From Conus ventricosus (taxonomy: Eukaryota; Mollusca; Gastropoda; Neogastropoda; Conidae), in contig CM031601.1 in NCBI GenBank assembly GCA_018398815.1, positions 23,951,345 through 24,015,344 on the forward strand: a DNA stretch of 64,000 bases, written 5' to 3'. Under the pieces are notes generated by a model that saw only the letters and a program-made list of their open reading frames with translations, had not been told where the DNA came from and did not search any database. Each line of letters opens with the position of its first letter. The stretch's first letter is position 1. This document shows positions 4,934 to 61,062 of this stretch, piece after piece. The position numbers and the translations under genes are program-made.

Positions 4934-5360
4934 CAGAGAAAAGAATTTGGAAACAGAAAGGGTAAGACAGAGGGAGAAGTAGTCAAAGACATCGTGATTG
5001 TGAGGCAAACAGGTGCTGACACAAACCTGAAAACCACAGAGACACACAGACTAGACAGTGAAAGAGAAGGGGGCAGAAGGGGAAGGGATGAGAAGCATGG
5101 AAGAAAGAGAGAAACCACATGAGTCACACCTTCAGCTGCCCATCTCAGTTAATAGAGTTTTGTGTGTAGCATGTACCATCACACACATTTTATAATGATG
5201 TCTATAATCAGTATTAATATTACACTTATTGAGAAAGAAGTTCCTGTATAAGGCTGAGATTGAACATTTGGTTCTAGTAATTACACACATTTGAATAATT
5301 TTCTTTCATAATTGTCTTCTCAAAAAATAAGGATTACTTAAAATTTGTGTGTGGTTTATA
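4928..5360. other. Flank of the ribozyme array, no gene seen
   Basis: AT-rich sequence with no recognised feature. The last bases before the array read ACTTAAAATTTGTGTG...TTTATATA, compared with AACTAAAATTGTC just after the array. Confidence 0.4.
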
Positions 5361-5582
5361 TAGGCTCAAAGATTGTCCCACTATATTTTATACTGTTTGA
5401 TAATGCTTTTTAGTTTTTCAGCGAACTTTTTTCCTCTCCACACTTGTGTTTTGTTTCCATTTATTACCTTCACTGGCTGCTTTGAGGCTGCTGTTGGATT
5501 CTTTTTTCGAACCTTGGTGGTGAGAACACTCACAGAATCATGGTTGTGTGTGTCTCTATTTGACACCAAGAGCACAGACACA

Positions 5583-5642
5583 ATTAGCCGTGTCTCCCTG
5601 ATGAGTCGATCCAGCGGTCGAAAGGCCTAGGAGCAGGCCAAT
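5583..5642 (+). ncRNA. Type I hammerhead ribozyme, unit 1
   Basis: CTGATGAG at 5598 and CGAAA before 5623. Stem II is GTC/GGTC with one C lost. Stem III/cleavage is AGGCCTA with predicted scission at 5629/5630. Stem I strands CTCC and GGAG flank the core. Weakened stem II. Confidence 0.85.
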
Positions 5643-6261
5643 ACAAATAAAATGTGCCTTGTGAGGGATTACGATGGTTCCCTAGGCAGCTAGTGAAGGG
5701 CCTTCTCCATATTTATAATATATTCCCCCATTTTCTTCATCTTCAAAAACATTTTTTTTTTTTTCCAAAGTTCAGATCTTTGTCTAGTCATTACTTTATC
5801 GACTGAAGATTTTGTTAGCTGCACTTGATTTTCCCTACTACTTAATTGTGCAGCTTATATTGTTTGGTCAATCAGTGGAGATTGAATGCTCTTAGGAGAT
5901 CCAAAGTTAAAGGTTTTGTTCTGCGCAATTCTTAAGCACTCACAATGCTTGGGTTATTGTACTGCAGAGAGCTGACCACTCGACTGTTCCTTGTCTTTTG
6001 ACCCTCCCTTGCTATTGAATGGATCCTTAACTGCATAGGCTCAAAGTTTGTCCCCTATATTTTATTCTGTTTGAATTAATGCTTTTAGGTTTTTCAGCGA
6101 CTTTTTTCTCTCAACACTTTGTGTTGTTCCATTTGATTCCCTTCTAATGGCTGCTTTGAGGCTGCTGCTGTTGGATTTTTTTTCGAACTTGGTGGTTCGA
6201 GATCCTCACTGAATTCTTGGACTGTGGTGTGTCTCTATTTGTCACCTAGTGCACAGACACA

Positions 6262-6320
6262 ATTAGCCGTGTATCCCTGATGTTGTCCGATCCAGCGGTG
6301 AAAGGCTTGGAGCAGGGATA
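6262..6320 (+). ncRNA. Degenerate hammerhead ribozyme, unit 2
   Basis: CTGATG at 6277 is followed by TTGTCC instead of AGTCC. The closing strand is GGTGAAA (C11.1 lost) and the cleavage box is GGCTT. Stem I carries TATCC. Probably inactive unless these are sequencing errors. Confidence 0.7.
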
Positions 6321-6936
6321 TACAAAATAATTGTGCCTTTTGAGAGGGATTACGATGGTTCCCTCAGGCGCTAGTGAAGGGCTTCTCTTATTTATAATAT
6401 ATTCCCCCATTTTCTTCATCTTCAAAAACTATTTTTTTTTTTTCAGATGTTCAGATCTTGGTCATTGTCATTACTATAACGACTGAAGGAATTGTTAGAC
6501 CTGCACTTGTTTTCCCTACTACTTAATTGTTCAGCATTTACTTTGTTTGGTCAATCAGTGGAGATGGCATTCTTAGGAGATCCAAGTAATGGTTGTTCTG
6601 CGCAATTCTTAGGCCACTCACACATGCTTGGGTGATTGAACAGCTGTGACTGACCATCTGTCAGAGTTCATGTATTTGACCTCCTGGCATCTTGATTGAT
6701 CCTCAAGCATAGGCCTCAAAGATTTGTCCCCTATTTTTTTATACTGTTTGAATAATGCTTTTAGTTTTTCAGCGACTGTTTTCCTCTCCTCACTGTTGTG
6801 TTGTTCCATTTTATTACCCTTCACTGGGCTGCTTTGAGGCTGCTGTTGGATTTCTTTTTTCGAACCCTTGGTGGTGAAACACCACAGAATCATGGACTGT
6901 GGTGTGTCTCTAATTGACACCATTGAGCACAGACAC

Positions 6937-6995
6937 AAGAGCCGGGTCTCCATTGATGAGTCCGATCCAGCGGTCGAAAGGCTAGGAGCAGGCAT
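6937..6995 (+). ncRNA. Hammerhead ribozyme, unit 3
   Basis: The core reads TTGATGAG at 6953 (C3 changed to T). Stem II is GTCC/GGTC. GAAA is present. The cleavage box GGCTA cuts at 6984/6985. The C3 change would be expected to cripple activity. Confidence 0.72.
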
Positions 6996-7615
6996 TACAA
7001 ATAAATGTGCCTTTGAGAGGGATTACGATGAGTTCCCTCAGGCAGCTAGTGAAGGGCTTTCATATTTATAATATATTCCCCCATTTTCTTCATCTTCCAA
7101 AACAATTTTTTTTTTTCCAAGTTCAGTTCTTTGTCAAGTCATTACTCATAACGACTGAAGAATTGTTAGGCGGCATCTGTTTTCCCCTGACTACTTAATT
7201 GTTCAGCATTATATAGGTTTGGTCAATCAGTGGGAGGGAGATTGTCTCTTAGGAGATGCAAGTAAAGGGTTGGTATGCGAATTCTTTGCCCTCTCAATGC
7301 TTGGGTTATTGAACAGCAGAGCTGACCACTCAGACTGTTCCATGTCTTTTGACCTCCTTGCATCCTTGATTGGATCCTCAAGCATAGGCTCAAATGATTG
7401 GTCCCCTATATTTTATAACTGTTTTGATAATGCTTTTCGTTTTTCAGCGACTTTTTTCCTCTCCACACTTTTGTTTTGTTCCATGTTATTACCTTCACTG
7501 GCTGCTTTGAGGCTGCTGTTGGATTCTTTTTCGAACCCTTGAGTGGTGCCAGAAACTCCTCATAATCATTGGGACTGGTGGTGTGTCTCTATTTGTCACC
7601 AAGAGCACAGACACA

Positions 7616-7673
7616 ATTAGCCGGTCTCCCTGATGAGTCGATCCAGCGGACGAAGGCCTAGGAGCAGGCAATA
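7616..7673 (+). ncRNA. Hammerhead ribozyme, unit 4
   Basis: CTGATGAG at 7630, then GTC, loop GATCCAGC and GGAC. The GAAA box has lost one A (GAAGGCCTA). Predicted cut 7660/7661. One-base indels are frequent in this unit. Confidence 0.78.
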
Positions 7674-8281
7674 CAAATAAATGTGCCTTAGAGAGGGATT
7701 ACGTGGTTCCTCAGGCAGCAGTGATGGGCTTCTCATTTTTATTATATTTCCCCATTTTCTTTCATCGACAAAAACCAATTTTTTTTTTTTTTTTCAAAGT
7801 TCAGATCGTTGTCAAAGTCGTACTATAACGACCTGTGAATTTTAGCCTGCACTTGTTTTCCCTACTACTTAATTGTTCAGCAGTATATTGGTGGTCATCA
7901 GGGGGAGATTGCATTCTTAGGAAGATCCAGTAAACGGTTGTTCTGCGCATTCTTAGCCATCACCAATGCTTGGGTTTATTGAAACAGCAGCGATGACCAC
8001 TCAGACTGTTCCATTGTCTTTTGACTTCCCTTGCATCTTGATCGGATCACTCAAGCTTAGGGACTCAAAGATTGTCCCCGTTATTTTTATTTACTGTTTG
8101 AAATAATGCTTTTAGTTTTTCAGCGACTTTTTTTATCTCCACACTTTTGTTTTGTTTCCATTTTATTAACCCTTCAGTGCTTTGAGGCTGCTGTTGGATT
8201 CTTTTTTCGAACCCTTGGTGGTGAGAACACACAGAATCATGGACAGTGGTGTGTTCTATTTGACACCAAGAGCACAGACAC

Positions 8282-8343
8282 ATTTAGCCGTGTCTCCCTG
8301 ATGAGTCCGATTCCAGCGGTCGAAAGGCCTAGGAGCAGGCAAT
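8282..8343 (+). ncRNA. Hammerhead ribozyme, unit 5
   Basis: CTGATGAGTCC at 8298, loop GATTCCAGC, then GGTCGAAA and AGGCCTA cut at 8331/8332. The core is intact; stem II has one U-U mismatch. The stem I pairs CTCC/GGAG and GCC/GGC are kept. Confidence 0.88.
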
Positions 8344-8952
8344 ACAAATAAATGTGCCTTTGAGAGGGATTACATGGTTCCTCAGGCAGCTAGTGTAGGG
8401 CTTCTCATATTTATAATATATTCCCCCATTTTCTTCATCTTCAATTTATTTTTTTTTTTTTTTTAAAGTTCGAATCTTGCCAAGTCATTACTATAACGAC
8501 TGAAGAATTGTTAACCTGCACTTGTTTCTCCCCCACTACTTAATTGTTCAGCATTATATTGTTTGGTCAATCAGTGGGAGATTGCATCTCTTAGGAGATC
8601 AAAGTAAAGGTTGTTCTGTGCAATTCTTAGCCACTCACAATGCTTGGGTTATTGAACAGCAGAGCTGACCACTCAGACTGTTCCATATCTTTTGATCTCC
8701 CTTGCATCCTTGAATGGATCCTCAAGCACAGGCTCAAAGATTGTCCCCTATATTTTATACTGTTTGAATAATGCTTTTAGTTTTTCAGCGACTTTTTTCC
8801 TCTCCACACTTTTGGTTTTGTTCCATTTTATTACCCTTCACTGGGCTGCTTTGAGGCTGCTGTTGGATTCTTTTTTCGAACCCTTGGTGGTGAGAACATC
8901 ACAGAATTATGGACTGTGGTGTGTCTCTATTTGACACCAAGAGCACAGCCCA

Positions 8953-9012
8953 ATTAGCCGTGTCTCCCTGATGAGTCCGATCCAGCGGACGAAAGGCCTA
9001 GGAGCAGGCAAT
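8953..9012 (+). ncRNA. Type I hammerhead ribozyme, unit 6 (canonical)
   Basis: Full consensus. Stem I 5' strand is ATT-a-GCC-gtgt-CTCC (8953-8967). Core CTGATGA is at 8968-8974. Stem II is GTCC/GGAC closing an 8-nt loop (8979-8986). GAA is at 8991-8993. A15.1-GGCC-U16.1-A17 is at 8994-9000, with the cut at 9000/9001. Stem I 3' strand is GGAG-ca-GGC-AAT (9001-9012). The stem I internal loop (gtgt/ca) and loop II sit where type I hammerheads make their tertiary contact. AGGCCT is self-complementary, so stem III can pair only poorly within one copy but pairs as 6 bp between two copies. Confidence 0.93.
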
Positions 9013-9620
9013 ACAAATAAATGTGCCTTTGAGAGGGGATTACGATGGTTCCTTCAGGCAGCTAGTGTAGGGCTTCTCATATTTAATAATATATTCCCCA
9101 CATTTTCTTCATCTTCAATTTTTTTTTTTTTTTAAGTTCGAATCATTGCCAAGTCATTACTATAACGACTGAAGAATTGTTAACCTGCACTTGTTTTCCC
9201 CCACACTTAATTGTTCAGCATTATATTGTTTGGTCAATCAGTGGGAGATTGCATCTCTTAGGAGAAACAAAGTAAAGGTTGTTCTGTGCAATTCTTAGCC
9301 ACTCACAATGCTTGGGTTATTAACAGCAGAGCTGACCACTCAGACTGTTCCATATCTTTGATCTCCCTTGCATCCTTGAATGGACCTCAAGCACAGGCTC
9401 AAAGATTGTCCTCTATATTTTATACTTGTTGAATAATGCTTTTAGTTTTTCAGCGACTTTTTTCCTCTCCACACTTTTTTTTTGTTCCATTTTATTACCC
9501 TTCACTGGCTGTTTTGGGGCTGCTGTTGGGATTCTTTTTTTCGAACCCTTGGTGGTGAGAACATCACAGAATATGGACTGTGGTGTGGTTTCTCTATTTG
9601 ACACTAAGAGCACAGCCACA

Positions 9621-9678
9621 ATTAGCCGTGTCTCCTGATGAGTCCGATCCAGCGGACGAAAGGGCCTGAGCAGGCAAT
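9621..9678 (+). ncRNA. Hammerhead ribozyme, unit 7
   Basis: CTGATGAGTCC at 9635, loop GATCCAGC, then GGACGAAA. One C is lost from CTCC before the core, and the stem III box reads AGGGCCTGAG instead of AGGCCTAGGAG. The catalytic core is conserved but the cleavage site is damaged. Confidence 0.8.
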
Positions 9679-10046
9679 ACAAATAATGTGCCTTTGAGAG
9701 GGATTACGATGGTTCCTTCAGGCAGCTAGTGTAGGGCTTCTCATATTTATAATATATTCCCCCATTTTCTTCATCTTCAATTTTTTTTTTTTTAAAGTTC
9801 GAATCTTTGCAAGTCATTACTATAACGACTGAAGAATTGTTACCGTGCACTTGTTTCCCCCACTACTTAATTGTTCAGCATTATATTGTTTGGTCAATCA
9901 GGGGAGAATTGCATCTTTAGGAATCAATAAAGTATAGTATGCTTCTGTGCAATTCTAGCCATCACAAGCTTGGTTATTGAACAGCAGAGCTGACCACTCA
10001 GGACTGGTTCCTACTTTGATCTTCTTTGCATCCTTGAATGGATCTC

Positions 10047-11330
10047 AAGAACTAAAATTGTCATATATATTAATTTTGAAAGCCTTGTTCTCAGCGCCTA
10101 CCACCCAAATACCTTGTTATAAATATCTACTCTTTGTGTTATCTCTTTCCACTTTTATTTTATTCCAATTTTGCTCACAAAGCTTTGTCAAGGCAGCTGT
10201 AAGGCTAAAAGGCATAGATATTCTGTACAACTTTCATATAAGAACTTCATAAAAATGTCTAAAACTTTCCTAACCCCTCACATGCACGCTCACCCCCAAC
10301 ACACACACACACACCACACAACACAACCACACACACACAACGGAAAAGTAATTCCGGCCCCCCCACTATCTTCCCCCAACATATTAATGGCTGCTTCGAA
10401 ACTATGCTTTTCCTTTCCTTCCACATTCCCACCCCACCTCACACTATCTCTACTTTACGCTACAACAGAAGATGCTAGCTGCAAAGAATAAAGATGTTAT
10501 AAACGGCATAAAGTAAAAAACTGATCAAGGATACTTCAAAAAATGACTAGAACCAGGAATGTGGAGGAGCGGAAGAATTAAAGATATAAGAACCGGGGCC
10601 TACGTTCTGTTGTGTGTGTGTTGTGTGTTGTGTGTGTGTGAGCGTCGTGCGCGAGTGTGTGTGCGTGTAGCGCGGAGTGTGTGTATGCTCTTATTATGTC
10701 TGGGGGGTTTGGTGGGGTGGTTGGTGGTGGGGAGTGGGTGTGCATTTGGTGGGTTTAAATTAATCACTCTTTTCGACCCTGTTGTATTCATTTTAGGCTG
10801 TGATTGTCCAGTTTTGGACACTAACGGCAACTAAGTTTTGACCGTGCTCTTGCTCCTCTTACTGTTTTCTCGGCCCTCCACATTCCCTGTCTTCTTAGTC
10901 TATGTCATCTTTTCTAGAGTACCTTTACTATTATCTTTTATTTTCATTTTATACCCTCGCAGTTTTTTGCAGGCAGCTTTTCTTTTTTTGGTACTGTTTA
11001 AGAATAAGAATTTATGGGAGGTGGTGGGTGTGTAATGTGGAAGAAGGGAACAGCATAGTTACGGTGCATTACATGATGTGGTTGCGAATACGTGCGCGCG
11101 CTGGCGCGGGTTATTTAACGTTTCGTTGTGTTTGTGTGTGGTTGTATGTGTTTTGGTGTGTGTGTGAGTGAGCGTATTGAGGGGTTGATACGGAAGTTTT
11201 TAGACATTTTCTTATTTAACTTAATAAGTTGTACAAAAAATTTAAAAGATCCTTTTATGCTTGGCAGTGCCTTGACAAGCTTGTCTACAAAATTTTGGAA
11301 ATATAAAATAAAATTAAAAATAAAATATTA
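10047..11330. other. No gene seen; TG/GC-rich patches
   Basis: The array ends abruptly near GGATCTCAAG. The rest holds short CA tracts (10301-10340), TG-rich low-complexity sequence (10609-10690 and 11117-11168) and no recognised coding region. Confidence 0.45.
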
Positions 11331-11331
11331 T

Positions 11332-11388
11332 TAATTATATTATATATATATTATATATATAATATATAATTAATTATATATAATAATT
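11332..11388. repeat. AT-rich imperfect palindromic tract
   Basis: TATATATATTA/TAATTAATTATATA combinations. It directly precedes copy A of the following repeat family. Confidence 0.8.
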
Positions 11389-11390
11389 AC

Positions 11391-12672
11391 CAAGCTTGTT
11401 TATGTCTTAGATTGAAGAAAGGGGGAAACTTCATACCTGCATGGCAGATTTTTCCTAACTAACAGTTGTGCTTGTGTGGTGATGGGAAAAAATAAAAAAA
11501 AATGCTTCTCAAAATGAACCTTCAGCAAGCTTATTCTCCCAAGGGGGAGACATCTCCAATGGGAGGAAACTCACTAACATATAACTCCTGGTCAGATTAC
11601 CGATATTTCGAAACTGTGGTTTCTCTCCTCAGTGACCGCGGTAATTGACTCCTCTGCCTTTTCGTTTTAAGAAGAATGCAATCCCAGAAAAGGCTGGTGT
11701 GCAATACTGTAGTATGTTTGTTGAGTTTTCAAAAAACCAACCAAAGGTGCCACTAAGAAGCAAAAGAAAATCATGAAAGAGCAAAACAAGCTACATTTTC
11801 TTGTGAAAAGTAGAAAATATAAAAAGATATCCTCTAAGACACAAGTGCTGAGGCCATTCTTGGAATGATCCGCAAGGGAGTAAAATAACAACAAACTAAT
11901 AATTTTCCAAGATAAGTACGAGCACCGTTCCAGCAATTACAGAGACTTGGTGTTGCAATGACTGCAAGAAATATTGAATTATAAACAAAGCTTGCTCTTA
12001 TGTCTTAGATTGAAGAAATAGGGGGAGATACGCATTCATACCTGCAGTGGCAGATGATTCTGCCTAACTAACAGTTTGTGCTTGTGTGGGTGAATGGGAA
12101 AAAATAAAATAAATGCTTCTCAAAATGAACCTTCGGAAAGCTTCTAGTCTCCAAGGGGAGACGATCTCCAATGGGGAGAAAACCACTAACATATAACTCC
12201 TGGTCAGATACCGATATTTCGAAACCTGATTGTTTCTCCTCAGCGACCGCGGAAAGTGGTAAATTTGGGACTCCTCTGCCTTTTCGGTTTTAAGAATGCT
12301 ATCCCAGAAAAAGTGGTGTGCAATACCGTAGTATGTTTGTTGAGTTTTAAAAAATGCAACCAAAGGTGCCACCTAAGAAGCAAAAGAAAATCATGAAAGA
12401 GCAAAACAAGCTCTCCCCCTTAAAGACTAGAAGCTTTCTGAGGTTCATTTGAGAAGCATTTATTTTTTTTTTCCCATTCACCCACACAAGCACATACTGT
12501 TAGTTAGGCAGAATAATCTGCCACTGCAGATATGAATGCTTATCTCCCCTATTTCTTCAATCTAAGACATAAGAGCAAGCTTTGTTTATAATTGAATATT
12601 TCTTGCAGTCATTGCAACACCAAGCTGCTCTGTAAGTTGCTGGAATGGTGCGGTATTTATCTTTGGAATTTA
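11391..12672. repeat. Repeat cluster: direct copies A and B, inverted copy C
   Basis: Copy A (11391-11793) and copy B (about 11895-12414) are direct repeats offset by about 600-620 bp. They share TATGTCTTAGATTGAAGAAA, CCTAACTAACAGT, AACATATAACTCCTGGTCAG, CCGATATTTCGAAAC and CATGAAAGAGCAAAACAAGCT. Copy C (12411-12672) is the reverse complement of 11895-12150, leaving a spacer of about 260 bp, so B and C can fold back. A shorter relative lies at 29025-29125. No ORF was recognised. It could be a non-autonomous DNA transposon/foldback element or a fold-back read artefact. Confidence 0.75.
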
Positions 12673-12676
12673 TTAG

Positions 12677-12680
<4 letters not shown>

Positions 12681-12722
<42 letters not shown>

Positions 12723-12735: not shown

Positions 12736-12789
12736 GTTTAAAATAGGATTTTAAAATGGAAGAATTAAAAACCTACAAACTTGTTTCAA

Positions 12790-13899
12790 GCTAAAATGCC
12801 CCTCATCAGGTTTTTACAATTTGGGCGGGGCCCCCGGGGTTATTATATTGGGGTGTGTGGGCTGTGAGCCCCTGTGGGGTGTGGCACGGGGCCCCTGCCG
12901 GTTTTTTCTTTTTTGGGGGCGCGTTCAGGGGGACGTGCCAGGGGAAGGGTTTGCTTTGACAAAGATTTCCTTTTTATCCCCTCAATTTTTTATCATTTCA
13001 AACTTTAAGTTAAAGGGTCTAGGGGGGGTTTACTTTTATCACCATTTTTCTTTTGTACAAAAGTTGAAATTTTTTTTTAAAATGTTGTTGTAGGGTGTTC
13101 CCTTTTTTTAAATTAATTTTCCTTGATATGTTGTTTCTTTTTTATTTTTTTTTAAAGGGTTTCCAAATATATTTACTTAATTTTTTTGGGTTTTTTTATT
13201 TTTTTAAATTTTTAAAAAGGGGATTTTTTAGGGTTTTAAATAACGGGTTTTTAAAAGGGGTTTTGGCCGTGACCCCCTTTGTATGTTTCTTTACACTTCT
13301 TTTGGGTTACCGTAGCTTGGTACACAATGTTGTTGTAGGGGACATTTTTTGTTCAGAGGGCCCGGGTCTTTTTTTGTGAAATTTCCCAAGATACCCTTTC
13401 ATCACCCTTTTTGGTTTTTGGTTTTTTTTGGGTTTTTTTGGGGAAAAAAAAAATTTAATTTTTTTTAAATTTTTTGGGGCTTTAAAACGAGTTTGATAGT
13501 TTTAAACGGTTTTTTTGTTGAATATTTTAGTTTTTCATGTTTTTTTTTGGGGAAGTTTTTTTAAGGATTTGGGGAATTCTTTTCCTCTTTAGGGGGCCCT
13601 TCAAAATGGGGGTTTACACCTATAATTTTTTTTTTCCCTTTTTTTTCCTTTTTGCTGTTATGTTTTATCGGGGTTTTATATTGAAATTTTGTTTTTGTAG
13701 CCACTTTTTTTTTCAGCGCCCTTGGATTCACTGCTGCCTTTTTAAATTCTTTCTCATTGCAGACATTAAAGATAATCTTTTGTTTATCCCCATTGGGTTT
13801 AAGGGTTTTTAAAGTTGGGGGGTTGGTTTGGTTACTATTGTTGTCTACATAGACGGGGGTGTCTTTGGGTTTTTTATATGGTTTGTTTGTATATCCTTG
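12790..13899. other. Homopolymer-rich low-quality sequence left of the LTR element
   Basis: The plus strand is T/G-rich, with runs such as TTTTTT-AAA-TTTT and GGGGG every few bases. No gene or repeat could be identified. The texture matches the element to the right and looks like poor consensus. Confidence 0.55.
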
Positions 13900-14439
13900 T
13901 TACGTATGGTGTGGGGTTTGCTGTTTTTTTCGACTCTCGCTCTCAAAAGTTTGGATGCGTGTAATAATTATTCTTACCCCAACCACACCAACGTACAGGG
14001 ATAGCCAGGCAACACACGGGGGTTAGATTTCTTTTCTTTATAATTATCTCCCTGAACCTAAAAAACATTTTTTCCCATTTTATTGTTTACAAATAAATTT
14101 TACTTTCATTTTATTTCGATAGATCGATATCAATAAATTTTCTTAAAAAACCTTAAATCATAAGATATCTTTTTTCATACGTTTATATCACTCACAGTCT
14201 CGCCGGCCCCGTCCCAGTGCTCACATTTAAAATCAAAAAATTCATTCCACAGAACCCAACCCAAAAGTTTTCAGCATTAAAATAAGACGAAGAAGGATAA
14301 CCAAGGTCCCCACACGGTAAAAACACCCCGTTCCCCAAAACTCCACGAGGGAAGAAAAACAGGGTTCAACACAGAAGCACCAATTTTTACGTCGAAAAAT
14401 TCCCCAAAGAAAAAAACCGCAAATTTAAAAGGGCACAAA

Positions 14440-14680
14440 TCCACAAAAAAAAGAACCTTTAGTTTCATAAAGAACAGCAATCCACAAAAATGAAGAACGG
14501 GTTTTTTAATAAAGACAGAAAACCATAAAGAACCGCAGTTTTCAAAACCCACAGAAATTTCCACGATGAAGAAACTGAAGATTCTTAAAACACACCCAAC
14601 CCACAGATGAAGAACCGCAAAATTCAAAAAAAACACAGCAACCAAATGAAAAACCCGCAAAATTCATAAACCCACAAAGT
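14440..14680 (-). repeat. ~38-bp minisatellite inside the 3' LTR
   Basis: Repeating phrase CACAGCAATCCACAGATGAAG-type followed by AACCGCAGATTCATAAA, about six imperfect copies. The same array is present in the other LTR. Confidence 0.65.
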
Positions 14681-15242
14681 TAAAACCCCCCCCCCAAAAA
14701 ACCCCCCGCAGATTCACAAAATACGAAATCTTTATTGAATCCCCGGAGAAAAACAATTTCACCAAAGTCCCATGGAACAAAATTAAACTTCGATTGGGAC
14801 GGGGGGGTTTGATCAAAAACCCAAATATTAACTTCTCCGTGAAATTCCACTACAATTTTTTCACATCAATAAATTCACCCCAAACCAAACACACATGCGT
14901 TTGGAAAAATTTTTTAAGCCCCAAAAATATTCTTATATTGATTTTAAAAATCATTCTCGGCGACAAAAGCTTCACAAAAATTTTTTTAAACAAATACATT
15001 TCCCCTGTTTTAAATTTTCCCGCGGGTTTAACCGTCAAAAAAAGTATCCCCATACACAGTGAACTGGGATGCACTACGACTTAAAAGTCAGCCTCCCACT
15101 TAGTAAAAATAGGGAAAAAAAAAACGAGATTTAAAAAAATTTAAATTAGGCGGACACCAACTCCCCGGGCCTTTAGTTTTTGTCTCTTCTTTGTCTTTTT
15201 TTAAATTTTTTCGTCATGTATTTAAAATTATGCTTTTTAAGT

Positions 15243-15267
15243 TGACGTCATAATTTTTTTGACGTCA
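15243..15267 (-). promoter_or_regulatory. Two CRE-type palindromes at the LTR start
   Basis: TGACGTCA occurs at 15243-15250 and again at 15260-15267, at the 5' edge of the LTR in element orientation. The other LTR has AGACGTCA and TTACGTCA at the matching place. TGACGTCA is the consensus CREB/ATF site; any function here is inference. Confidence 0.45.
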
Positions 15268-15270
15268 AAA

Positions 15271-15286
15271 ACCCCCCCCCCCTCCT
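15271..15286 (-). other. Polypurine tract
   Basis: The minus strand reads AGGAGGGGGGGGGGGT directly before the 3' LTR. This is the expected position and composition of the plus-strand primer of an LTR retrotransposon. Confidence 0.7.
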
Positions 15287-15669
15287 AAAGGGAAAAAAAC
15301 AATAAACCGTTGTTTTTTTTTTTTTTTTTTTTTTTAAAAAAGGGTAAAAAAACAGAAGAAAACACAACCTAAAAAAATTAAAATTAAATCGACGGAAAAC
15401 AAAGCCGCTCAGGGAAAAGCTTTTCCCGGGGAGCCCTTCCAAAGGGTTTCTCACACAACGGGAAAAACAAAAGTTGTGCCCCAACGAACCCGAACCCTTT
15501 GACATGCAAAGCTTTTGCTGCCCTCACAAAACCTCTCCTTTCCCACACTGGGTAGAGACCACACATTCTATGCCATTTCGGTCAGCCTCTCCATCCCCCC
15601 CAAGGGGTGGGAATAAAACTGCATTTTCACAAAAGGGAAATTCCTTCCAAAGGGGATAAATTTTGTTTC

Positions 15670-16130
15670 TCACATGGGGGGAAAGGGAAAAGGTCGCAAA
15701 AACATTCGCCAAACCCAGGAATGGCTACAAAAAAAACGAAACTCCTGAAATGAAAAACGCCCCCTCATAATTCTTGATTTTTTAAAGGGGTTTTGGGACG
15801 TTCGGGTTACTTAAAGGGCATGATCTGTCTCCAAGATAAATTTTCCCTCCCCAAAGGAACCTTAAAAACTTCTAAACACCCCGGGACAATGGCTAAACAT
15901 CCCGTTTAATATACTTGAAACCCCTTCTCCGTTCCATTTTAACTTTCGCTAGCGAATACAAAGGGGTAAAGGCATCTTCCCCCTCCGAAGAAATACAGCC
16001 CCAAAAACCCAACAAACTAGCTTCAGCCCTGAGAACAAAAAAATTTTCCCCAAACCCTGGGTAAAAAGGGCAAAGGTGCAGAAGACAAGCCCCCCGAACT
16101 TCCTAAAAGTTCTGAAACATTCGGAGTCCA
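15670..16130 (-). pseudogene. Gypsy RNase H domain (frameshifted)
   Basis: Minus-strand motifs in order: LGFGAVFLRRG-type (about 16.03 kb, the DASxxGVGAVLLQ block), ETDH (about 15.83 kb, of the LETDHxPL block), RIMRG (of the RLMRWAL block) and an IPG...CDL stretch (about 15.70 kb, of the IPGKxNxxADxLSR end). It is the last pol domain before the 3' LTR, with about 0.4 kb between. Confidence 0.75.
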
Positions 16131-16299
16131 AAAAAATAGCCCTTTTCCAGCACGAAAATTTTTCTTTGATCAAAAATTCGACAGTGGGGCACTCACATAG
16201 CAAACCCTAGGAAAATATTCCTGAAAAAAACTGAGCGCCCCAAAAAAAGCCTGCCCTGCCCCTTGTATTTGGAGTGGATTTATTCAAAATTTTTTTTTA

Positions 16300-17100
16300 A
16301 ACCTTCTTACCTTCAGGAGCTTAGTCCCACCTCCAACAAAATGCCCAAAGGAATTTCCCAGTGAACAAACCCTGTCTCCGTTTTTTCGAAGGAGGTGTGA
16401 GGTTGAAAGACCTCAGAGGGGGAGAGCACCCCCAAAACCAAAATTTTTAAAGGGGAAAACATCCCATGACATATGTACCAAGAATTCGTAAAAAAAATTG
16501 ATGGCGAAAAACTGTTTCAAATTGCCAGCTTTGGGCTCTTGCGTGCAAAACACGCGGGGACCCGAAAACAATTTCCAAAAGGAAATCCTGACAAACGGGA
16601 AAATTAAACCCCCAAGTGTGTTTTTAAAAGCCGTTTTTGGGGCAAACCCTGGGCTTAAACCACGTCTCCCAAATATCCTTTCCCAAGATTTTTTCTTTGT
16701 GAAAAAAGGCATCAGTTTAACCTTGCAAAAAGACTCTAAACCCTCGGGAAAATTGGTTCGGCTTCAAAGGGGTTTTAACCCTTGTTCAAAGATCTAAATT
16801 TTAAATGCAAAACCCTACAGTAACCATTTTTCTTCCTGCCAACCCCAACTGGAGATGCTTTCGGTTTTTTGGTTTTCAAGGATTCCAAGACCCCACATGA
16901 TACCAATCTCTCTCCAACAACCTCTTTCGCAGAAGGGGGATATCAAAACATTTCTTTCTAAAGGGGGACATCTGTTGTAAGAGGGATCCTAATAGTCCCT
17001 CACCTGAGAAAGAACCGGGTTTTAGGATAAAAATGCCCCTAAAAATCTTCAAAGACTGCACGAAACCCCCAAAAAACCCGCTGTCAGACAAAGTCAATCA
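16300..17100 (-). pseudogene. Gypsy reverse transcriptase domain (frameshifted)
   Basis: Minus-strand motifs: LSDS...GFVQSLKIF (about 17.09 kb, the pre-RT FRDVF-type block), GLSPGFAPKTAF (about 16.65 kb, of GYWQxxLxPESxxKTAF), FPFVRISFW (about 16.59 kb, of FxRMPFGL), FFYEFLVH (about 16.49 kb, at the position of FxDDxLVxS) and HFVGGGTKL (about 16.34 kb, of EFLGHxVGxG). The catalytic DD pair is not readable as assembled. It lies downstream of integrase on the coding strand. Confidence 0.75.
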
Positions 17101-17439
17101 AACGCACTGAGGGGCCCAATTTTCCCTTGGCTTTGAAAACCCCATGGGAAAACAGCAAAAGTGGGGGGGGGTTTAAAGCGTAAACACAGCCCCTTGGACA
17201 CACCAACTGAAACAAACCATTTCACAACAGAAAAAAACAGACTCCGGAGGGGGGTCCCAAAAGACCAACTCCTGGAGAACACTCAAGAAAACCTTTTCCC
17301 TGCTTTTAAGCCAAAGGGTTTCTACCCTCTGAAAAAGGGCCCACAAAAGGACCTTGTGAAAGAACAACAGCGAATTTAGACAAAAACAGCACGACAAATA
17401 TATTTTTTTGAGCAATTCGCATGAAAGTTTTTTTCCCTT

Positions 17440-18500
17440 TTCCCCTTGCCCAAGGACCTTGTAACTGGATGAAAGACTTTGGGGAACGGCCCTGACCAAT
17501 GGTTAACAACTTTTTTTGGTCAGTCGGCAACAACTAAAACTTTTCATCAAACTTGGAAACGGGGGTTCCCCCCTGCCTTCTTGTCAAAGGTTTTTTTTTT
17601 TCCCTTAAAAGCGGAATCAGCAGAATTCCCCAAATGGCTAACTTACATATTTGAAATTTTCAACTTGGGGTTCAAAAAAGGGTCGAATAAAAGGGGTTTT
17701 TGGCCTAACATCCTGACCTCTGACCCATCCAGCTCTGTAGTAAAGAACAGGCCCAACAAACCTGTCGCCCAAAAACAGCAACGGGAAAAGGGGAAAAAAC
17801 CTGTTTTTTTCAGAGGGCAACCCCTCTGCACGCCAAAACAACAGTGCAGGCAAAAATCGATCCATGCCTTTTGGTTGAGTGCGGACAATTTTTTAAACAG
17901 GGATTTCAAAGCCCCATGAAATCTCTAAAACGCCCTTTTGGGCCTGTGGATAAAATACGGCGATTTTCGTACGCCCTTTGCACCACAAAAAGCTAAAACT
18001 GCTTCATGAATCAGAGTTGAACTGTGTCCCCTGATCAGCCCAGAATCCCCTTTGGGGAAAACCTTTAAACGAGAAAGTTTCCCCAACAATGCTTCCCCCA
18101 CAGCAAAGAGGAGATACCCCTTAAAGGGAACAGCCCCCGGGGAAAAAGGGGGGTACCCAATGTAAAATCATGGCCCAAGATGTAACGATGACCTTGTTCC
18201 GAGGGGGAGATAGTGGACCCAACAAAAATCAACAGCCCCCCACGATCAAATGGAGTACTGATTTACTGGAACAGACGCAAGGGGTACTGGACAAACTCTA
18301 AACCCCTTTTTTATGTCCCTTTTGAACACATCACGGGAAACAACATTTCTTTGTACTTCCCCCAGTTACTCCAGGCCCAAAAGACTTGTTAAGGATTTTG
18401 GGCAGAGTAGCCCGGGAAACCCCCCCCCTGACCCCACAAAATTTGATCATGTGCCCAAAAAAGGGGGGAAAAAAATGTAGGTCGAAGTTTAACGGAACCA
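17440..18500 (-). pseudogene. Gypsy integrase (frameshifted)
   Basis: Minus-strand motifs in order: a GPGVTG-type stretch (about 18.38 kb, of FWPG), PVPLASVPVN (about 18.27 kb), segments matching DxVGPLxPxSExGHRYIL (about 18.22-18.17 kb), DQGTQFNSD (about 18.03 kb, the second catalytic Asp region), LPALLF (about 17.85 kb), RFFPLFPLLFLGDRFVGP (about 17.80 kb, of the GxSPFELLFGRxxRGP block) and LLPTDQKKLL (about 17.53 kb, of the C-terminal GPY-type module). It is spread over all three frames. Confidence 0.82.
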
Positions 18501-18779
18501 ACCGGGTCAAAAGAGGGTATCATTTTTGCAAAAAGCCTGTACAGAACCTCATCAGACACTTAATAGTAAAAGGTTTGTTTTACCTAAACCCCTTCAACCC
18601 CACCAGAAATGCGACTGGAAGAAAGATCAATGACGCATCATCCTTCTTGTTCTGAACAAGACAGAAAAGGGAAAATTTAAAAATCAACTGGGATTGACTC
18701 AAAGGCTTTTTGGCCCCAACATGCTTAGCTCTAGCCCTCGAAAAGGGGGTAAAGAGAAAAGGGTTTTACCAGATAACTT

Positions 18780-19035
18780 TTATTAACTCCCGTTCACAAA
18801 AACTCCCGGGACATTACCCACAATTTAGACTGCGACAGGGGCTATCCCAAAACACAACAAGTCAAATCACCCAACCCCAAAAAAAGGGCACTGACTGAAA
18901 CTGTAGCCAGTGGAAAATCCTTTCCCCCGACCACCAAAAAAAAACCACTTCACTGTGGTTCCTAAAATCTGACTGTCAGAAAATTTAAACCCTTTGGGGA
19001 ACGCCACAAAAAGTAGCACCAGTATCAAAGCAGAA
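18780..19035 (-). pseudogene. Gypsy retropepsin-type protease
   Basis: DTGATFCGVP (about 19.03 kb) carries the catalytic DTG/DTGA motif. A VSVSTAFFGVG-like segment and IVGNVPGVFVN (about 18.79 kb) fit the conserved protease end (LxxGNVPGV). Only about 0.3 kb separates it from integrase, too little for an RT/RNase H. Confidence 0.78.
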
Positions 19036-19099
19036 CAGAAACTCAAAGTGGGCCCTTCCCCAGAACCAAATCCAAAAGCAATTTCCTGTGAACTCCCCC

Positions 19100-20652
19100 A
19101 GCAGCTAGACAAGGGAAAAAGGGTATCAAGAACGGGAACAAGCAATGGATGTTTCTGTCGGCTAGTTCTCAAAAAAAGTAAAAGTTTTTTAACCACAAAA
19201 GGAAAACGTGTCTGGGGGGGCTAAGGGTTGCAAAATTTTAAAAAGGGCTTTACCTGACTTCCTGGACCCCTAGCACTTTTTTGCCCCCCCCTTTTTACAC
19301 AAAAAACACACAACACTTTCAAATGTCAAAGCACTTTTGAGGAACTCCTACGCCCCGAAAGGGTTTAAAAGGGCGCCCGGCCACGTTAAAGGGTACCCCC
19401 AAAATTAAATTTTCCCCACCAGCTGAGTAACCCAAAGCTTGATGCCATAATTTTCAGCTTCCACCAAAGGTTTCTTCCACGATCGCCGAGGAACCAAGTA
19501 TGGCCACTGTTTTTAAAAATAGGTATCTTTTCCTTGTCAGACTGACCACAGTACGGGGTTCTATCAGCTGACCGGGGAAAGCATTTCTTTTCAAACTGAC
19601 CCGGGGGTTTTGAACCCCAAAAGAAGCAAAAAGTTTACATAGCTTTCCTAAAAGCCCTTTTGTTTTTGGTGAGCACGTCTGTATTTGGGGGGGCTCTGAG
19701 ACCCTTTAAATTTCATTTAAAAATTTTTAAAATCTCTCTCACAAAAAAAAAAGTGGGCCCCCCCCCTTAAGACACACCCAAAAAATGCTCAAAAAGGGAA
19801 AATTTAAATCCACCAGATCTTTAAAAGACTTTTCAATTTTTGACAAAGGGCCCAAAAGGTTTAAACAAACGCCCAATTTTAAATGCAAAGGTTTTCGAAA
19901 GGTTTTATCGGGGCTAGGCTTTGCCTCACAAAACGCTTACGAAAACCATCTGGAAATTTTTTTGAAATTTTTTAGCAAGCCCCCTCCCCCCTTTTAAAAA
20001 AATCGTAAGACACAACATTTTTTTTCAGCGGGACTGTGATAGAGAGTTAAAGCAGAACCCCAAGAAATGCCCGACAGGGATGGGTTTCCCCCAAACTCTC
20101 AGCCCTTTCCCCAAAAAAAAGAGGCCCGGGGGTTTTAAAACGAAACAAGTAACTGTCTATATCCAGTTCTTTTCCCTTTAAAGGGGGAACTTAGGAAGGT
20201 TGGGGGAGGGGGTTTTTAAAACCCTTTGGGAAAAAAACCCAAAACCCAAATCTCCTGTCCCCGTCCTAACCGCACCCCTGTGAGAAATAACTTGAAAACT
20301 GGGATTCTTTTTGTTTCCCCCTTTTCCTTTAATTTTTTTTGTTTCCTCCTGTCTCTTTTAGTTTCCCCCCTTGTATCCGCCTCTCTTTTAAATTTCCTCT
20401 TGTATCTGGGTCTCTTTTTGTTTCCTCTTTTAAACTGCTCCCCTTTTAGTTACTTTTTCTTCCTGTACCTTTTCATTTTGATTTTTTCCTCTCTTTCCAA
20501 TCTTGAGCAATGCATTTATCCACATAGGGCCCAAAAGATTTTTCCCCCCAGACCCCCATACCTTTCCTCGTTGGGAAATACTTGGCAAAAACTTTGTCCT
20601 CGTCCCAGAGGACATTTAAAAGGACTTTCTTTCCCTTTGCCTTCTGTGCCAT
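19100..20652 (-). pseudogene. Probable gag region
   Basis: A minus-strand ATG at 20652 opens MAQKAKGKKVLLNVLWDEDK. It is followed by a Lys/Glu/Arg-rich, probably coiled-coil stretch (ERKKSKMK-like, 20.5-20.3 kb) that resembles the charged N-terminal region of many animal Gypsy gag proteins. No clear CCHC knuckle could be read before the protease. Assignment is by position and composition. Confidence 0.5.
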
Positions 20653-21530
20653 CTTGGGAAAAAATTTAAATAAGTCCCGTCAAACCCGACCACACACTAA
20701 AAGGAAACAAATACAACAATTTTTAACACAAGCAAAAAAAAATTTTAAACAAGGGCTATTGAAATATATATGAATTTTTCCCCAAAAGGATTTTTTTTTT
20801 TTAAACAACATTTTAAAGAAAAACACTCTTAAAAAAACTAAATATTATCAAACCCAAACCCAAAAACAAAAAATAGAATTTAAACAACCCAAACCGGAAT
20901 TTTTGGGTTTTGGGGGGGAAAAGGAAAAAACCCCAATCCCTAATCAAAGCCAAAAATTTTAGAACAAGGATAAAAAGCCCAAAGACATAAGTAATAAAAA
21001 ATTTTAATTTAAAAGTATTTTTGTTGTTGTTTTTTCCAAAACTAAGGGATTCAAAAAGAAACAAAATAAAAATTTATTTATTTTTTTTTTTTTTCAAAAC
21101 TGGTTCAGGGCAGCCACCCCCAACACCCACTCTTCAAGAGGGGAAAAGGGAAACCCCGAGAAGCTGAAGAAGCAACACAATCCCCCAAGTAAAAATAGAA
21201 AAAAAAATTAAACGAGAGATTTACTGAAATAAAAAAAATTAAAGCCCGCAAAGGAAAGAAGAACTAGGAACTAGGCCCTCGTTCTCCTGAAACCTTTCAG
21301 AAGGAAAAATTAAAACCCCCTTACGCTGGAAAACGGGGAAAAAAAGTAACAAAAAAAAGTCTAAAAACAAAAAAAAACAACCAACTCAATTTTAAAAAAA
21401 AAAGTCTGTGAAAGTGCTATCACTTCTAATTGGGAATTATAGGGTTACAAAAAACAAAATTTCCCACCCCTAAGGCAAATTTTTTTTCAATTTGCAAAAA
21501 AAACTTTTAAATACGGGGGCCCCCAGTTTT
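20653..21530 (-). other. Leader between 5' LTR and gag
   Basis: About 0.9 kb of A-rich low-quality sequence. No primer-binding site could be named with confidence. A segment at 21192-21230 (GTAAAAATAGAAAAAAAAA...AACGAGAGATTTA) resembles part of the LTR at 15102-15130. Confidence 0.4.
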
Positions 21531-22918
21531 TTACGTATGGTGTGCCCGGGGCGTGTTTTGTCCCGAATTCCCCGCTCTCAAAATTTTTGGAAAGCGTTTT
21601 AAAAATTATACTCTACACAAAAACCACCCATACGTACATGGATAGCCCCGGCAACACACGAGTTAGATTTCTTTTCTTTAATTTTTGCGCCTGAAACCCT
21701 CCCAAAACATTCAATTTAAAGTGTTTGGTACAAATTATTTCATGTCATTATAAAGCATATTTGATCAAGTTATCCCCCCCAATTCATAAGAAATTTAATC
21801 ATCAGATATTCCCAAATTTCATATCGTTAAAATCACTTTACCAAAATCTCGGCCCCGGGGCCGTCCACAAATGCTCACTTTTATAATCAACGTATTTTAG
21901 TTCCACGCCCAAGCCCCAGTCTACAGCATTTTTAAATTTAAAACGAAGAAGGATAAACCAAGGGGCCCCCAAAGGTAAACACCCGCCCCCTTCAAAAAAA
22001 TTTTCTCCACGATTTAAGAAGAAACGGGGCTCAACACAGCATCACAATATAATTTCGTCGAACTATCAGAAGAAGAACCGCCCCCCCCAAATTTTCAAGG
22101 GACACAAATTTCCCCAGAAAAAAGAACCGTAGATTCATAAAACAGCAATCCCAGATGAAGAATCTGAAGATTTTATAAAGCACAGTAAAAAAAATAGAAA
22201 ACCGCGTTCATAAAACACAGCAATCCACGATGGAACGAAAAATTCATAAAAACAAAAGGGAACCCCCTATGAAGAACCGAGAATTTAAAAAACACAGCAA
22301 AACCACAGATTTAAAAACCGCAGAAATTTATAAAGCACAGTAAACCCTTGAAGAAACCCCAGTTTTACAAAAAAAACAGCAATCAATTTTTAATCCCCCC
22401 AGAAACAATTTCACCAAATCCCATGGAAAATTTTTGGGTTCGAAGTACCTTGTCTAAAAAAAAAATTTTAAATTCTCCGTGTAAATTTACAATTCAAAGT
22501 TAAATCAATAAATTTTGCCCACCCGGACACACATGCGAAAAGGGGAAAAATTTGAGCCATAAATTTTTTTTATAGGGGTTTTAAATTTTATTCCCCCGGC
22601 GACACGGGAAATTTACAACAATTTTATTAAAAAATAAATTTCCTTTTTCTTTTTCCCCTGGTACCGTCCCAAAAGTATCCCCACAATTTCAAAAGTTTTT
22701 CATCCCATGCACACTGACTTTTAAAAAAACACCTCTCCCATAGAAAAAATACGGAGAAAAAAACGATGATTAAAAAAAATAAAATTGGGGGGGGGGCCCA
22801 ATCCTCCCCGGCCGTTAGGGTTTTTTGCTCCTTCTTTTGTCCCAATTTTTATTATTTTCTTCCCTTTTAGTTTAAAAATGTAATTTTTAAAAAGACGTCA
22901 TAATTTTTTTTTACGTCA
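21531..22918 (-). repeat. 5' LTR of the Gypsy element
   Basis: Direct counterpart of 13900-15267, with the same ordered phrases and nearly the same length. The outer end on the minus strand reads TGTGACGT. The internal ~38-bp minisatellite lies at about 22060-22390. Confidence 0.82.
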
Positions 22919-25696: not shown

Positions 25697-28296
25697 TTAC
25701 AATAAATGAAAGATAACAGAACTCGATATAGCCTTTGCTATATCAATCATTTTGGGGCTGTAAAGAATTTCTTGTAAAGCCCCTAAGGAACCAATATCTA
25801 TCCTTTGGATATTATATAAAGATGTTTGAATTGGACATTCAAAAAGAATATGTTGAATAGATAATGGGAGACCACAAGCGCAATCTACATCCTTAGAAAA
25901 TTTGGTTTTCCACGAGTTTAAACGCATCTTATAAATTATACTGGACAATGATCTTTGACATAATAACACTTTCGTTTTTGCAGAAGTTTTTCATTGTTCA
26001 TACAATTTTCTAATAGAGAAATGATTTCATGTTTATCCAGTTTTAATCTACTTTCTGGATTTTTTCTAAGAGCACCCTCTTTTGCTAATTTATCAGCTAT
26101 TTCATTTCCATAGATACCACAATGAGATGGGATCCAGCAAAACTCTACAAAAGTTCCTTTCGCCATAACGGAATGTATCATAAATTTTATATAAAAATTA
26201 AGTCTTTCCTTACATTTGCATCCCAATTTCGTAAGCTATAAAGAACAGATTTTGAGTCAACACAGATTAGAATGCTGTAAATTGCCACATCAAGATCAGA
26301 TATCCAAGATAAGGCCATAAGGATTGCATATAGTTCAGCAGTGAAAACTGAAAAGTTCTTTCCTAAACAAAATGATTTCTTTGCTTTTAAATCGGGAATT
26401 ACAAATCCAGCTCCTGTATAAGATTCTAAAACTGAACCATCCGTGTAGATTTTAAGATGATGTGGATATGTGTTTTCAAGATGTTCTTTTGCTTCTACTG
26501 ATATCAAATTAATATGGTCTTCTTTTTTTAGAGTAGTATAATCTATACCAAAATTTGGAGAGATATGCTCCCATTGAGGAACTGTGGGCATAGTTGGAGG
26601 TTTTGAAATGGATGCAATATCGATGTCACATTTTTTAAATAAATCATCAGTATAATTTCGAATGGGCTGCAGGTAAGAAATATTCTGTGCCCTTTTAGGA
26701 AAATCCGATTTGGAATCAAGAAAGATTTCATTTGTTACTGAATTTGATATAGAAAGACTTCTGGTTACATATTTGGCTGTTGCTAGTTTGCGTTGATCTC
26801 AAGTGACAAGAGATTAGCTTCTTTATATGTTTTAAAAGTATTAGAATGTACTGGAACACCAAGGGCTATTTTAATAGCTTTACTGTCTAAACTTTGTAAC
26901 CGCTTAAGTAATGTTTGAGAAGCTGAAAAATATACTTCCTGTCCGTAAGTCAATTTTGAACGAACCAGACTAATAGAAAGATGTACAAGAGTTTGGGAAT
27001 CTTGACCCCACGATTGTGCACTGATTATTTTTAGTAAAGATAGCCTTTGTCTGGCATTGTTTATAAGATATTCAATATGGAATCTACAGTTTAATTTAGG
27101 AGTGAAATGAACACCTAAAAATTTAACATTATTGGAATATTGAAGAGTTTTATTTTCTAGCACAAGTTGAGGCAAAACTTTTGGATTTTTACCATTGTTG
27201 AATAACATTAATTGTGTCTTTTCTCCTGATAGTTCTAGTCCATTTTCGTTCATATATTTATTCAGTTTGTCAATTTCAATTTGATATAATTTTTGTATAT
27301 ATAACATGGTTCTCTTATTTGTCTGTTTTTTATGTTTGTATTCATCCACATTGCAATATCATCGGCATATTGCACTACATGCATATTTTTAGACAGTATT
27401 TTAGGAAGATCGTGAATGAGAATTGTAAATAGAATAGGAGCAATAATGGAGCCTTGAGGGATGCCAATGTCAATATCTTTAAACGAAGAGTAACATTTAC
27501 CAACCCTAGTACAAACTGATCTCTCAGATAAGAAAGATTTTATGAACTGATACATTGCGCCATTAATCCCAATATTTTTCAACTTATAAAGTAAACGAGA
27601 ATGCCAGACACTATCGTATGCTTTTCTAATGTCAAAGAAAGTAGCAAGAGTACTTTTTCTACGAGCAAATTGTTTTTTAACATGACTTGCAAGTTTTACA
27701 AGGTGATCGATTGTACTCTACCTTTTCTGAAACCTGCTTGATTGTTGGGAATTATGTCATTCTTTTCACAATAATGTAAAATGCGTTTTTCAACTATTTT
27801 TTCTAGTATTTTTCCAACTTGAGATGTTAATGCTATTGGTCGATAACTATCAATTGCAGACCTAGGTTTACCTTGTTTTGGAACTGGTATTACCACTATC
27901 CTCTTCCAGAAAGTAGGAAGAGTTCCATTTAACCAACATTTTTTGTAAAACGAGTGAAGTAATTGCTTCCAGCACAAAGGTAAGTGGCATAACAATTGAT
28001 ACGAAATTCCATCTAATCCAACATCTGTCTTATTCGAGGAGAATGAAATTAGTGCTTCTTTAAATTCTTCAAATGTTATAGATGCATTTAAGTAATGGTT
28101 TGGATCCAGTGTGGGATCACAATAAGGATCCTTTTTCTCCTCTAGTTCTCTGTAACTTTTGGTATCTGTACGTAGTCTAGTTGATGAGTTATTTTTTGAA
28201 AAAGCTTGTACAAATGCTTCAGCTTTCTCTGATGATGTTGGAATAATATTTTTTTCTAATTTAATAGGATATGAAGGTAGATAATACTTGTTTTTT
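25697..28296 (-). pseudogene. I-type LINE ORF2: RT, RNase H and C-terminal Cys/His motif
   Basis: This is the best-preserved LINE here. RT starts near 28.28 kb, with SYRPIALTSQVGKILEK (about 27.84 kb), NNQAGFRKGR (about 27.74 kb), IPQGSIIAPILF (about 27.45 kb), the catalytic QYADDIAMW (about 27.36 kb) and the thumb SLVRSKLTYGQEVYFSAS (about 26.95 kb). RNase H acidic residues sit in YTDGSV (about 26.44 kb), FTAELYAILMAL (about 26.33 kb), CVDSKSVLYSL (about 26.25 kb) and GNEIADKLAKEG (about 26.10 kb). A CACG...H...C motif precedes the stop at 25697. About five frameshifts inactivate it. The 5' end is cut off exactly at a (TG)n tract. Confidence 0.92.
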
Positions 28297-57599: not shown

Positions 57600-58114
57600 A
57601 AAAAAACAGTTTATCGTTATAATTTTATCATATTGTGGTTTTCTGTCCAACACTTAAAGGGAACAAAGCATATCATGATAAGGTTTATATGGACAGATGA
57701 TGACATATATTTAGTTGATCCTAGCAATAAACTGAGTGAGTGTTTAGAACAGTTTTATAGACTGTTGAAGTAACGCAGACACTATTTATTATAGATGACT
57801 GTTCGGCAGAAAGAGACATAGTTAAAAAGAGAAACACTTTATCAAAACTTGCTTTCAGTGGAAGACATGCTGGAATAAGTGTGTGGATTTTATGCCAAAA
57901 ATATAACTCAGTTTTAAAAGACTTTAGAGAACAGTTAAAGACTGTAGTTTTATTTCACATGAAAGACCGAGATGCATTTGATGAATGTATGCGTGAAAAT
58001 GATGTTGTTGAAAATGATCAGGAAAAACATAGGATTAAGCAAAAACTGAAATCTGAAAAGTTTAGTAAATTAGTTTTGAAAACGGATAACCCTGCACAGT
58101 ATGTTTGTTTGTAG
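57600..58114 (+). pseudogene. Polinton packaging ATPase (A32/FtsK-HerA type), C-terminal part
   Basis: The readable part from about 57790 has LFIIDDCSAERDIVKKRNTL (Walker B IIDD), LAFSGRHAGISVWILCQ (the sensor region shared with Polinton ATPases), FREQLKTVVLF and KLKSEKFSKLV, ending at a stop at 58114. The last 78 codons form one clean frame. A stop near 57771-57773 and the low-quality sequence upstream hide the Walker A part. The gene ends 39 bp before the terminal hairpin, an arrangement that keeps it at the element edge. Confidence 0.82.
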
Positions 58115-60790: not shown

Positions 60791-60793
60791 CTT

Positions 60794-61062
60794 CCTGACA
60801 GTTCCCCACTGGCTGTCTGTTCACACACACGTTGCCTCTAATGGCATCCTGACAGTTCCCCACTGGCTGTCTGTTCACACACACGTTGCCTCTAATGACA
60901 TCCTGACAGTTCCCCACTGGCTGTCTGTTCACACACACGTTGCCTCTAATGGCATCCTGACAGTTCCCCACTGGCTGTCTGTTCACACACACACTTTGCC
61001 TCTAATGACATCCTGACAGTTCCCCACTGGCTGTCTGTTTCACACACACTTTGTCTCTAATG
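60794..61062 (-). repeat. 54-bp minisatellite, five copies, open on the minus strand
   Basis: CCTGACAGTTCCCCACTGGC recurs at 60794, 60848, 60902, 60956 and 61012. The 54-bp period equals 18 codons. The minus strand reads four in-frame repeats of NVCVNRQPVGNCQDAIRG with two Cys each, ending at a stop near 60747. The fifth copy has extra bases that break the frame. Only A/V and D/E-type substitutions are seen between readable copies. Whether it is translated is unknown. Confidence 0.9.

Follow-up and report, generated by a model that had tools for sequence, protein, structure and literature searches.

The window analysed here is a 64,000-nucleotide stretch of Conus ventricosus DNA (GenBank assembly GCA_018398815.1, contig CM031601.1, positions 23,951,345 to 24,015,344 of the forward strand), in which an original prediction, made from the letters alone, had placed a retrozyme-like tandem array of hammerhead-ribozyme units. 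Self-comparison and alignment resolved seven head-to-tail units of 675, 676, 674, 674, 669, 665 and 649 bp, in that order, on the + strand (5360..10052; starts at 5371, 6046, 6722, 7396, 8070, 8739 and 9404 in the register used), and comparison of the edges with the unit placed the array from about 5360 to 10046-10052. Alignment thus confirmed the predicted seven units of about 669 bp as units of 649-676 bp, which also bears out the remark that they are longer than known animal retrozymes, reported at about 170-400 nt, a range that is no strict definition, in the available portion of Cervera and de la Pena 2020 (PMC7229834).

A seven-unit array with hammerhead segments

The other six units of the window array are 84-93% identical to unit 6, and GC content over the array is 0.39-0.42 (about 40%, below 50%). 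Units 1-4 carry more indels than units 5 and 6 do. The original prediction also held that no ORF exists; open frames running from stop to stop over 127-134 codons do cross the array, and no such frame is conserved in every unit. The array was missed by Tandem Repeats Finder, which allows periods of 500 at most. By eye, the sequence after 10052 could pass for a degenerate eighth unit; this reading was rejected, its score of 54 lying within the range of shuffles (mean 40, maximum 65, n=200).

A hammerhead-like segment was present in all seven units, with the consensus GCC-GTGT-CTCC-CTGATGA-GTCCG-ATCCAG-CGGWC-GAAA-GGCC-TA-GGAG-CA-GGC. This consensus has type I topology: stem I is formed by CUCC/GGAG, then an internal loop, then GCC/GGC; stem II and the core are present; stem III is a single A-U pair under a palindromic GGCC cap, and UA precedes the predicted cut. 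The claim that every unit carries a hammerhead therefore stood for the segment itself, for a consensus stem I on both sides and for the UA, and gave way for the exact core motif CTGATGAGTCC-loop-GGWCGAAA, which occurs in only three of the seven units (5, 6 and 7). A structural descriptor applied to the whole window gave three matches on the + strand and none on the - strand, compared with one match in 100 dinucleotide shuffles searched on both strands, and a stricter version that also required the palindromic stem III loop and stem I was passed only by units 5 and 6.

The best-preserved copies are the unit 5 hammerhead (8287..8340, +), which passed the descriptor with one U-U mismatch in stem II and is predicted to be cut after 8331, and the unit 6 hammerhead (8957..9009, +), which passed with a full stem II and a predicted cut after 9000. 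Units 1, 2, 4 and 7 have indels that touch the core, stem II or the cut site: stem II is one base shorter in unit 1 (5587..5638, +), the core is broken in unit 2 (6266..6317, +), the GAAA box lacks one base and stem II is shortened in unit 4 (7620..7669, +), and unit 7 (9625..9675, +) combines an exact core with an indel in the cut-site region. Unit 3 (6941..6993, +) has a single core mismatch and a shortened stem III loop. Since damage affects most of these copies (the descriptors are passed by two or three of the seven), transcripts of the array, which had been expected to self-cleave into monomers, would be predicted from their sequence to cut only in part.

Dispersed copies, their ends and their template

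The genome assembly comprises 3.52 Gb in 12,740 contigs. Searching it with the core motif at up to 2 mismatches found 8,610 copies (4,397 forward, 4,213 reverse), and a 22-nt tail at up to 1 mismatch found 8,746; the reversed control gave 0 in both searches. This dispersal was not visible from the letters of the window alone. The first 100 listed perfect motifs, all on one contig (C1), fell at 81 places, 67 of which held a single listed motif, and among the matches listed neighbouring motifs in C1 were spaced 644-687 bp apart. An exact 41-mer had no match in viral contigs. We fetched 38 loci, all from C1, 24 by the ribozyme motif and 14 by the tail; the complete tail set consists of all perfect tail matches in the first 20.46 Mb of C1, every one of which was fetched. 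A second subfamily, B, was also seen (L013:3092-4573, and in L031 and L032), with units of about 740 bp that have the hammerhead part in common and a different body, a UC cut site, and direct as well as inverted copies.

Chains of units ended at a nearly constant position. Of 52 chains found, 37 were counted, after exclusion of 11 from family B (L013, L024, L031, L032), three at locus edges and one with an N flank, and 34 of the 37 counted family-A chains ended between nt 207 and 228 downstream of the cut, nt 225 being the end point in 20. The three others were a split chain in L010, a fragment in L014 and a chain in L045 that is cut close to the limit of the fetched sequence. Element sequence ends with ...CACTACTTAATTGTTCAGCA or a few bases later, where target DNA begins, and 5' ends are scattered from consensus nt 2 to 632. 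Target-site duplications (TSDs) of 10-14 bp flanked 5 of 19 insertions, compared with 5 of 342 mismatched flank pairs; a scan that counted simple repeats was dropped, with 11% of control pairs scoring. (TA)n adjoins 19 of the 34 fixed ends, an uncontrolled count in loci with a background AT content of 58%. Between insertion ends we found only units or truncated units and no long terminal repeat (LTR)-type arrangement, although primer-binding site (PBS) and polypurine tract (PPT) motifs were not searched for. None of the loci examined had a coding region attached to the unit.

A predicted AC-rich hairpin with a CCCCCACUAC arm has the fixed 3' end in its apical loop or close to it; in unit 5 of the window this hairpin occupies 8530..8580 (+), with TTCAGCA at 8547-8553. 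Its predicted stability corresponds to a z of -1.9, with 23 of 500 shuffles equally stable. An AC-rich stem loop is also where an anole Penelope-like protein starts, and this protein cuts AT-rich DNA in vitro (PMC11167929).

Run-through at the ribozyme cleavage site bears on the form of the template. In the complete tail set, 18 of 25 insertions (L034 excluded for N) run through the site, and therefore the template was joined there. Two of the 25, L046 (nt 2) and L019 (nt 10), have their 5' ends in the first 20 nt downstream of the cleavage site, which amounts to no strong accumulation there. A cut linear monomer copied from the fixed start would stop at this site. Units of one array also resemble each other in detail: non-consensus variants were common to units in 469 of 672 within-array comparisons (70%) as against 521 of 7,694 between-locus comparisons (7%). 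In L009, L016, L029 and L030, 21-25 variants are common to all units, 2-7 are private and at most one is partly shared. Such array-wide sharing fits the trace expected from several rounds on one small circle.

Folding suggests how these ribozymes might act. Co-folding of two segment copies gave a symmetric dimeric hammerhead with a 6-bp AGGCCU stem III at -44.1 kcal/mol and, because stem III of a single copy is one pair with a palindromic loop, cutting is predicted to need two copies as a dimer. Axolotl retrozyme hammerheads, as described in the available portion of PMC7229834, likewise have a one-pair stem III with a palindromic tetraloop (HHR_Amex1) and cut better as dimers. Directly before the cut, subfamily B (L013, L031) and L025 have C, and one L021 copy has U. 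Among 52 copies chosen by the core motif, which does not include the cut site, a G comes after the U solely in copies with a base deletion there.

Conservation was compared in three samples, of which we rely on the complete tail set, intermediate between the other two. Its hammerheads carry 40 substitutions in 1,152 sites as against 773 in 11,693 elsewhere (Fisher p 1e-5, which treats sites as independent, although neither they nor the copies of one array are), 15 of the 428 windows elsewhere have as few substitutions, and CTGATGA and GAAA are kept in 16 of 21 hammerhead segments. In the ribozyme-chosen loci, excluding L013, L024, L025, L031 and L032, the unselected hammerhead parts have 11 substitutions in 899 sites and the rest 951 in 17,975.

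A proposed route of movement and its rivals

These results point, with fair probability, to a non-coding retroelement family of ~670 nt with a predicted type I hammerhead, in which ribozyme-cut circles are copied from one internal start, probably by Penelope-like enzymes. The fixed internal end and scattered 5' ends together indicate that insertions were likely copied back from RNA circles. Retrozyme-like is the best reading of its class, since most of the animal-retrozyme features tested are present. The proposal of a retrozyme-like system thus holds up for the type I hammerhead, the tandem units, the GC content of ~40%, the dispersed copies and the hallmarks of retrotransposition, with the qualification that the evidence for mobility comes from loci other than the window. 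The route and template of animal retrozyme movement have been proposed in the literature and are not settled; circles are named intermediates and Penelope elements candidate helpers in the available portions of PMC7229834 and PMC7761336. Here, thousands of inserts with readable ends make the circle proposal countable in an assembly and rebuildable in vitro, and the unit falls outside the size range reported for animal retrozymes.

In the route that we propose, arrays would be transcribed by read-through, and two hammerheads, joined by the palindromic AGGCCU stem III, would cut after UA to free monomers, as predicted from sequence and fold. By analogy with published retrozymes, a host ligase would then circularise the monomers. 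Priming at nicked DNA, often (TA)n, would let a reverse transcriptase start by UUCAGCA, which lies ~219 nt downstream of the cut; the fixed ends and targets behind this step are observed, and the enzyme and priming are presumed. Copying would continue for a variable number of rounds on the circle and could stop anywhere, leaving truncated or multi-unit inserts with common variants, a step for which the variant sharing is observed and the circle presumed. More tentatively, and with somewhat less than even confidence, the loci may be footprints of rolling-circle target-primed reverse transcription by Penelope-type machinery into AT-rich DNA, the hammerhead making an endless template for a borrowed enzyme.

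The candidate source of that enzyme lies close to some copies: Penelope-type hammerheads or a GIY-YIG fragment adjoin four retrozyme loci. Hammerheads with palindromic CAAATTTG and UA were found by descriptor in L013, L021 (two copies) and L031, with none in 20 shuffling rounds, and they stand about 100-180 nt from retrozyme sequence. Their stem II and stem III sequences differ from those of the retrozyme. A GIY-YIG-like open reading frame (ORF) lies at L015:3432-3839, and 4 of 13 aligned members of its family match Pfam GIY-YIG (best E 3.3e-5), with no Pfam GIY-YIG match for the L015 query itself. Shortly 3' of this ORF a similar segment with CTGACGA and CAACGTTG was recognised by eye and did not pass the descriptor. 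We take these hammerheads and the ORF to be Penelope-like partly on features generally ascribed to that class. Two of the hammerheads, at L021:9120 (-) and 9347 (+), are inverted around a GIY-YIG-like fragment, and the one near 804 in L031 lies in an inverted repeat. A 70% DNA match of window positions 13074-13341 to a GIY-YIG stretch was not borne out by tblastn and was left unused.

Several observations weigh against copying from ribozyme-cut circles by such enzymes. In older or short-overlap arrays (L018, L020, L022, L025 and the minus copy of L021), more variants are private than shared, and an uncut transcript of a uniform array would give the same run-through and shared variants. That Penelope-like elements supply the enzyme is something we infer from neighbourhood and analogy, with the frequency of such hammerheads uncontrolled. 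Changes in the outer helix of the start-site hairpin all keep pairing, and so do shuffles, which leaves the hairpin with no support from covariation in the 13 of 23 listed copies that were compared. The window array itself, which starts at consensus nt 393-397, ends at nt 391-396 and so misses the fixed genome-wide 3' site, and its variants fall into two blocks, units 1-4 and units 5-7; this array is atypical among the loci and may be a composite, have grown by DNA exchange or be distorted by assembly error. One segment folded alone prefers another structure (-17.5 kcal/mol, compared with -9.7 for the hammerhead), and the whole unit is 52% paired with a z of -1.75 over 60 shuffles, not strikingly stable. 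In the newly fetched tail loci the hammerhead was only slightly more conserved than the rest (26 of 529 as against 376 of 4,964), in a sample that excludes loci fetched earlier for a perfect ribozyme and is poor in perfect ribozymes as a result.

The Rfam results belong with these points. No family reached the gathering score in the window or in L013, L016, L023, L031 and L032, and, with E allowed up to 10, neither the window array nor the cleaner L030 array gave a hammerhead. The original prediction had named the lack of an above-threshold hammerhead hit as grounds for abandoning it, and formally that is what was found. In our judgement, an uncalibrated one, Rfam lacks sensitivity for a stem III as short as this, and we hold the negative to be weak because L013 and L031, with descriptor-found Penelope-type hammerheads, also gave no gathering-score match.

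If the template were instead a long uncut array transcript copied from the same internal start, the ribozyme would not be required for movement, an explanation that we regard as rather unlikely. Uniform source arrays would also yield run-through of the cut site and near-identical units, and insertion by the anole Penelope-like protein in vitro was indifferent to ribozyme mutants and used mainly uncut RNA (PMC11167929). Against such a template, variants are either common to all units or private, with at most two partly shared per array, although ageing arrays should leave more; in addition, the ribozyme of the complete tail set is better conserved than the other parts of the unit.

The unit could also be the pseudo-LTR of an autonomous Penelope-like element whose tandem copies were left without the coding part. 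Minimal type I hammerheads do occur in tandem pseudo-LTRs of Penelope elements (PMC11167929 and the available portion of PMC7761336), and some insertions have a GIY-YIG ORF and Penelope-type hammerheads nearby. Yet in the loci examined each unit directly adjoins the next unit or flanking DNA, the TSDs in the 5 of 19 cases enclose units alone, and the neighbouring hammerheads differ in stem II and stem III sequence, and we consider this origin improbable. An ordinary satellite DNA carrying a relict hammerhead and spread by unequal crossing-over would suit the window array, which is close to 7.0 units long with edges in the same phase and has the two variant blocks. It accords poorly with the 81 places and 67 single listed motifs among the first 100, and fixed 3' ends, scattered 5' truncation and TSDs are not satellite features, which makes a satellite origin very improbable.

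Related systems and other features of the window

Like the animal non-LTR retrozymes in the available portion of PMC7229834, the Conus family, which we read as copied from ribozyme-cut circles, has a type I hammerhead, tandem and single units, low GC, no LTR arrangement, thousands of copies and TSDs longer than 4 bp. It differs from them in its unit of about 669 nt, compared with about 170-400 nt, and in a predicted self-pairing that is not outstanding; the fixed internal 3' end with 5' truncation found here is not described in that portion. With Penelope-like elements (anole Poseidon in PMC11167929, others in the available portion of PMC7761336) it shares the minimal type I hammerhead and tandem copies, and with Poseidon (PMC11167929) also an internal reverse-transcription start, an AC-rich stem loop and AT-rich targets, whereas the Conus unit has no coding region in the loci examined and repeats directly onto itself. 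Plant LTR retrozymes, again from the available portion of PMC7229834, are similar in unit size (near 600-800 nt) and in the idea of a circle; they have type III hammerheads in LTRs, PBS, PPT, 4-bp TSDs and GC over 55%, whereas the Conus unit has type I topology, TSDs of 10-14 bp and about 40% GC. Schistosoma SMalpha and newt satellite 2 (available portions of PMC8490949 and PMC6155905) are likewise dispersed or tandem hammerhead repeats, SINE-like (resembling short interspersed elements) or satellite, and their descriptions set them apart by sequence and size (newt about 330 bp).

Beyond the array, a further dispersed repeat lies beside (TA)n at window positions 11324-12713; it is partly inverted and is common to retrozyme loci L011, L015, L017, L020 and L027. 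From about 12755 to 22000 every frame reads as homopolymer-rich and unusual, a stretch that may be poorly polished assembly. Reverse transcriptase and RNase H pieces are spread over several frames at 26187-28250 on the - strand (Pfam RVT_1, E 1.4e-21, and RNase_H) and presumably belong to a non-LTR type element. An ORF at 57761-58114 (+) matches Pfam Pox_A32 (E 2e-7), an ATPase family, and possibly derives from a large DNA transposon or virus-like insertion. Two further tandem arrays lie near the end of the window, one of 62 bp x 11 at 59831-60516 (98% matches) and one of 54 bp x 5 at 60793-61064 (95% matches).

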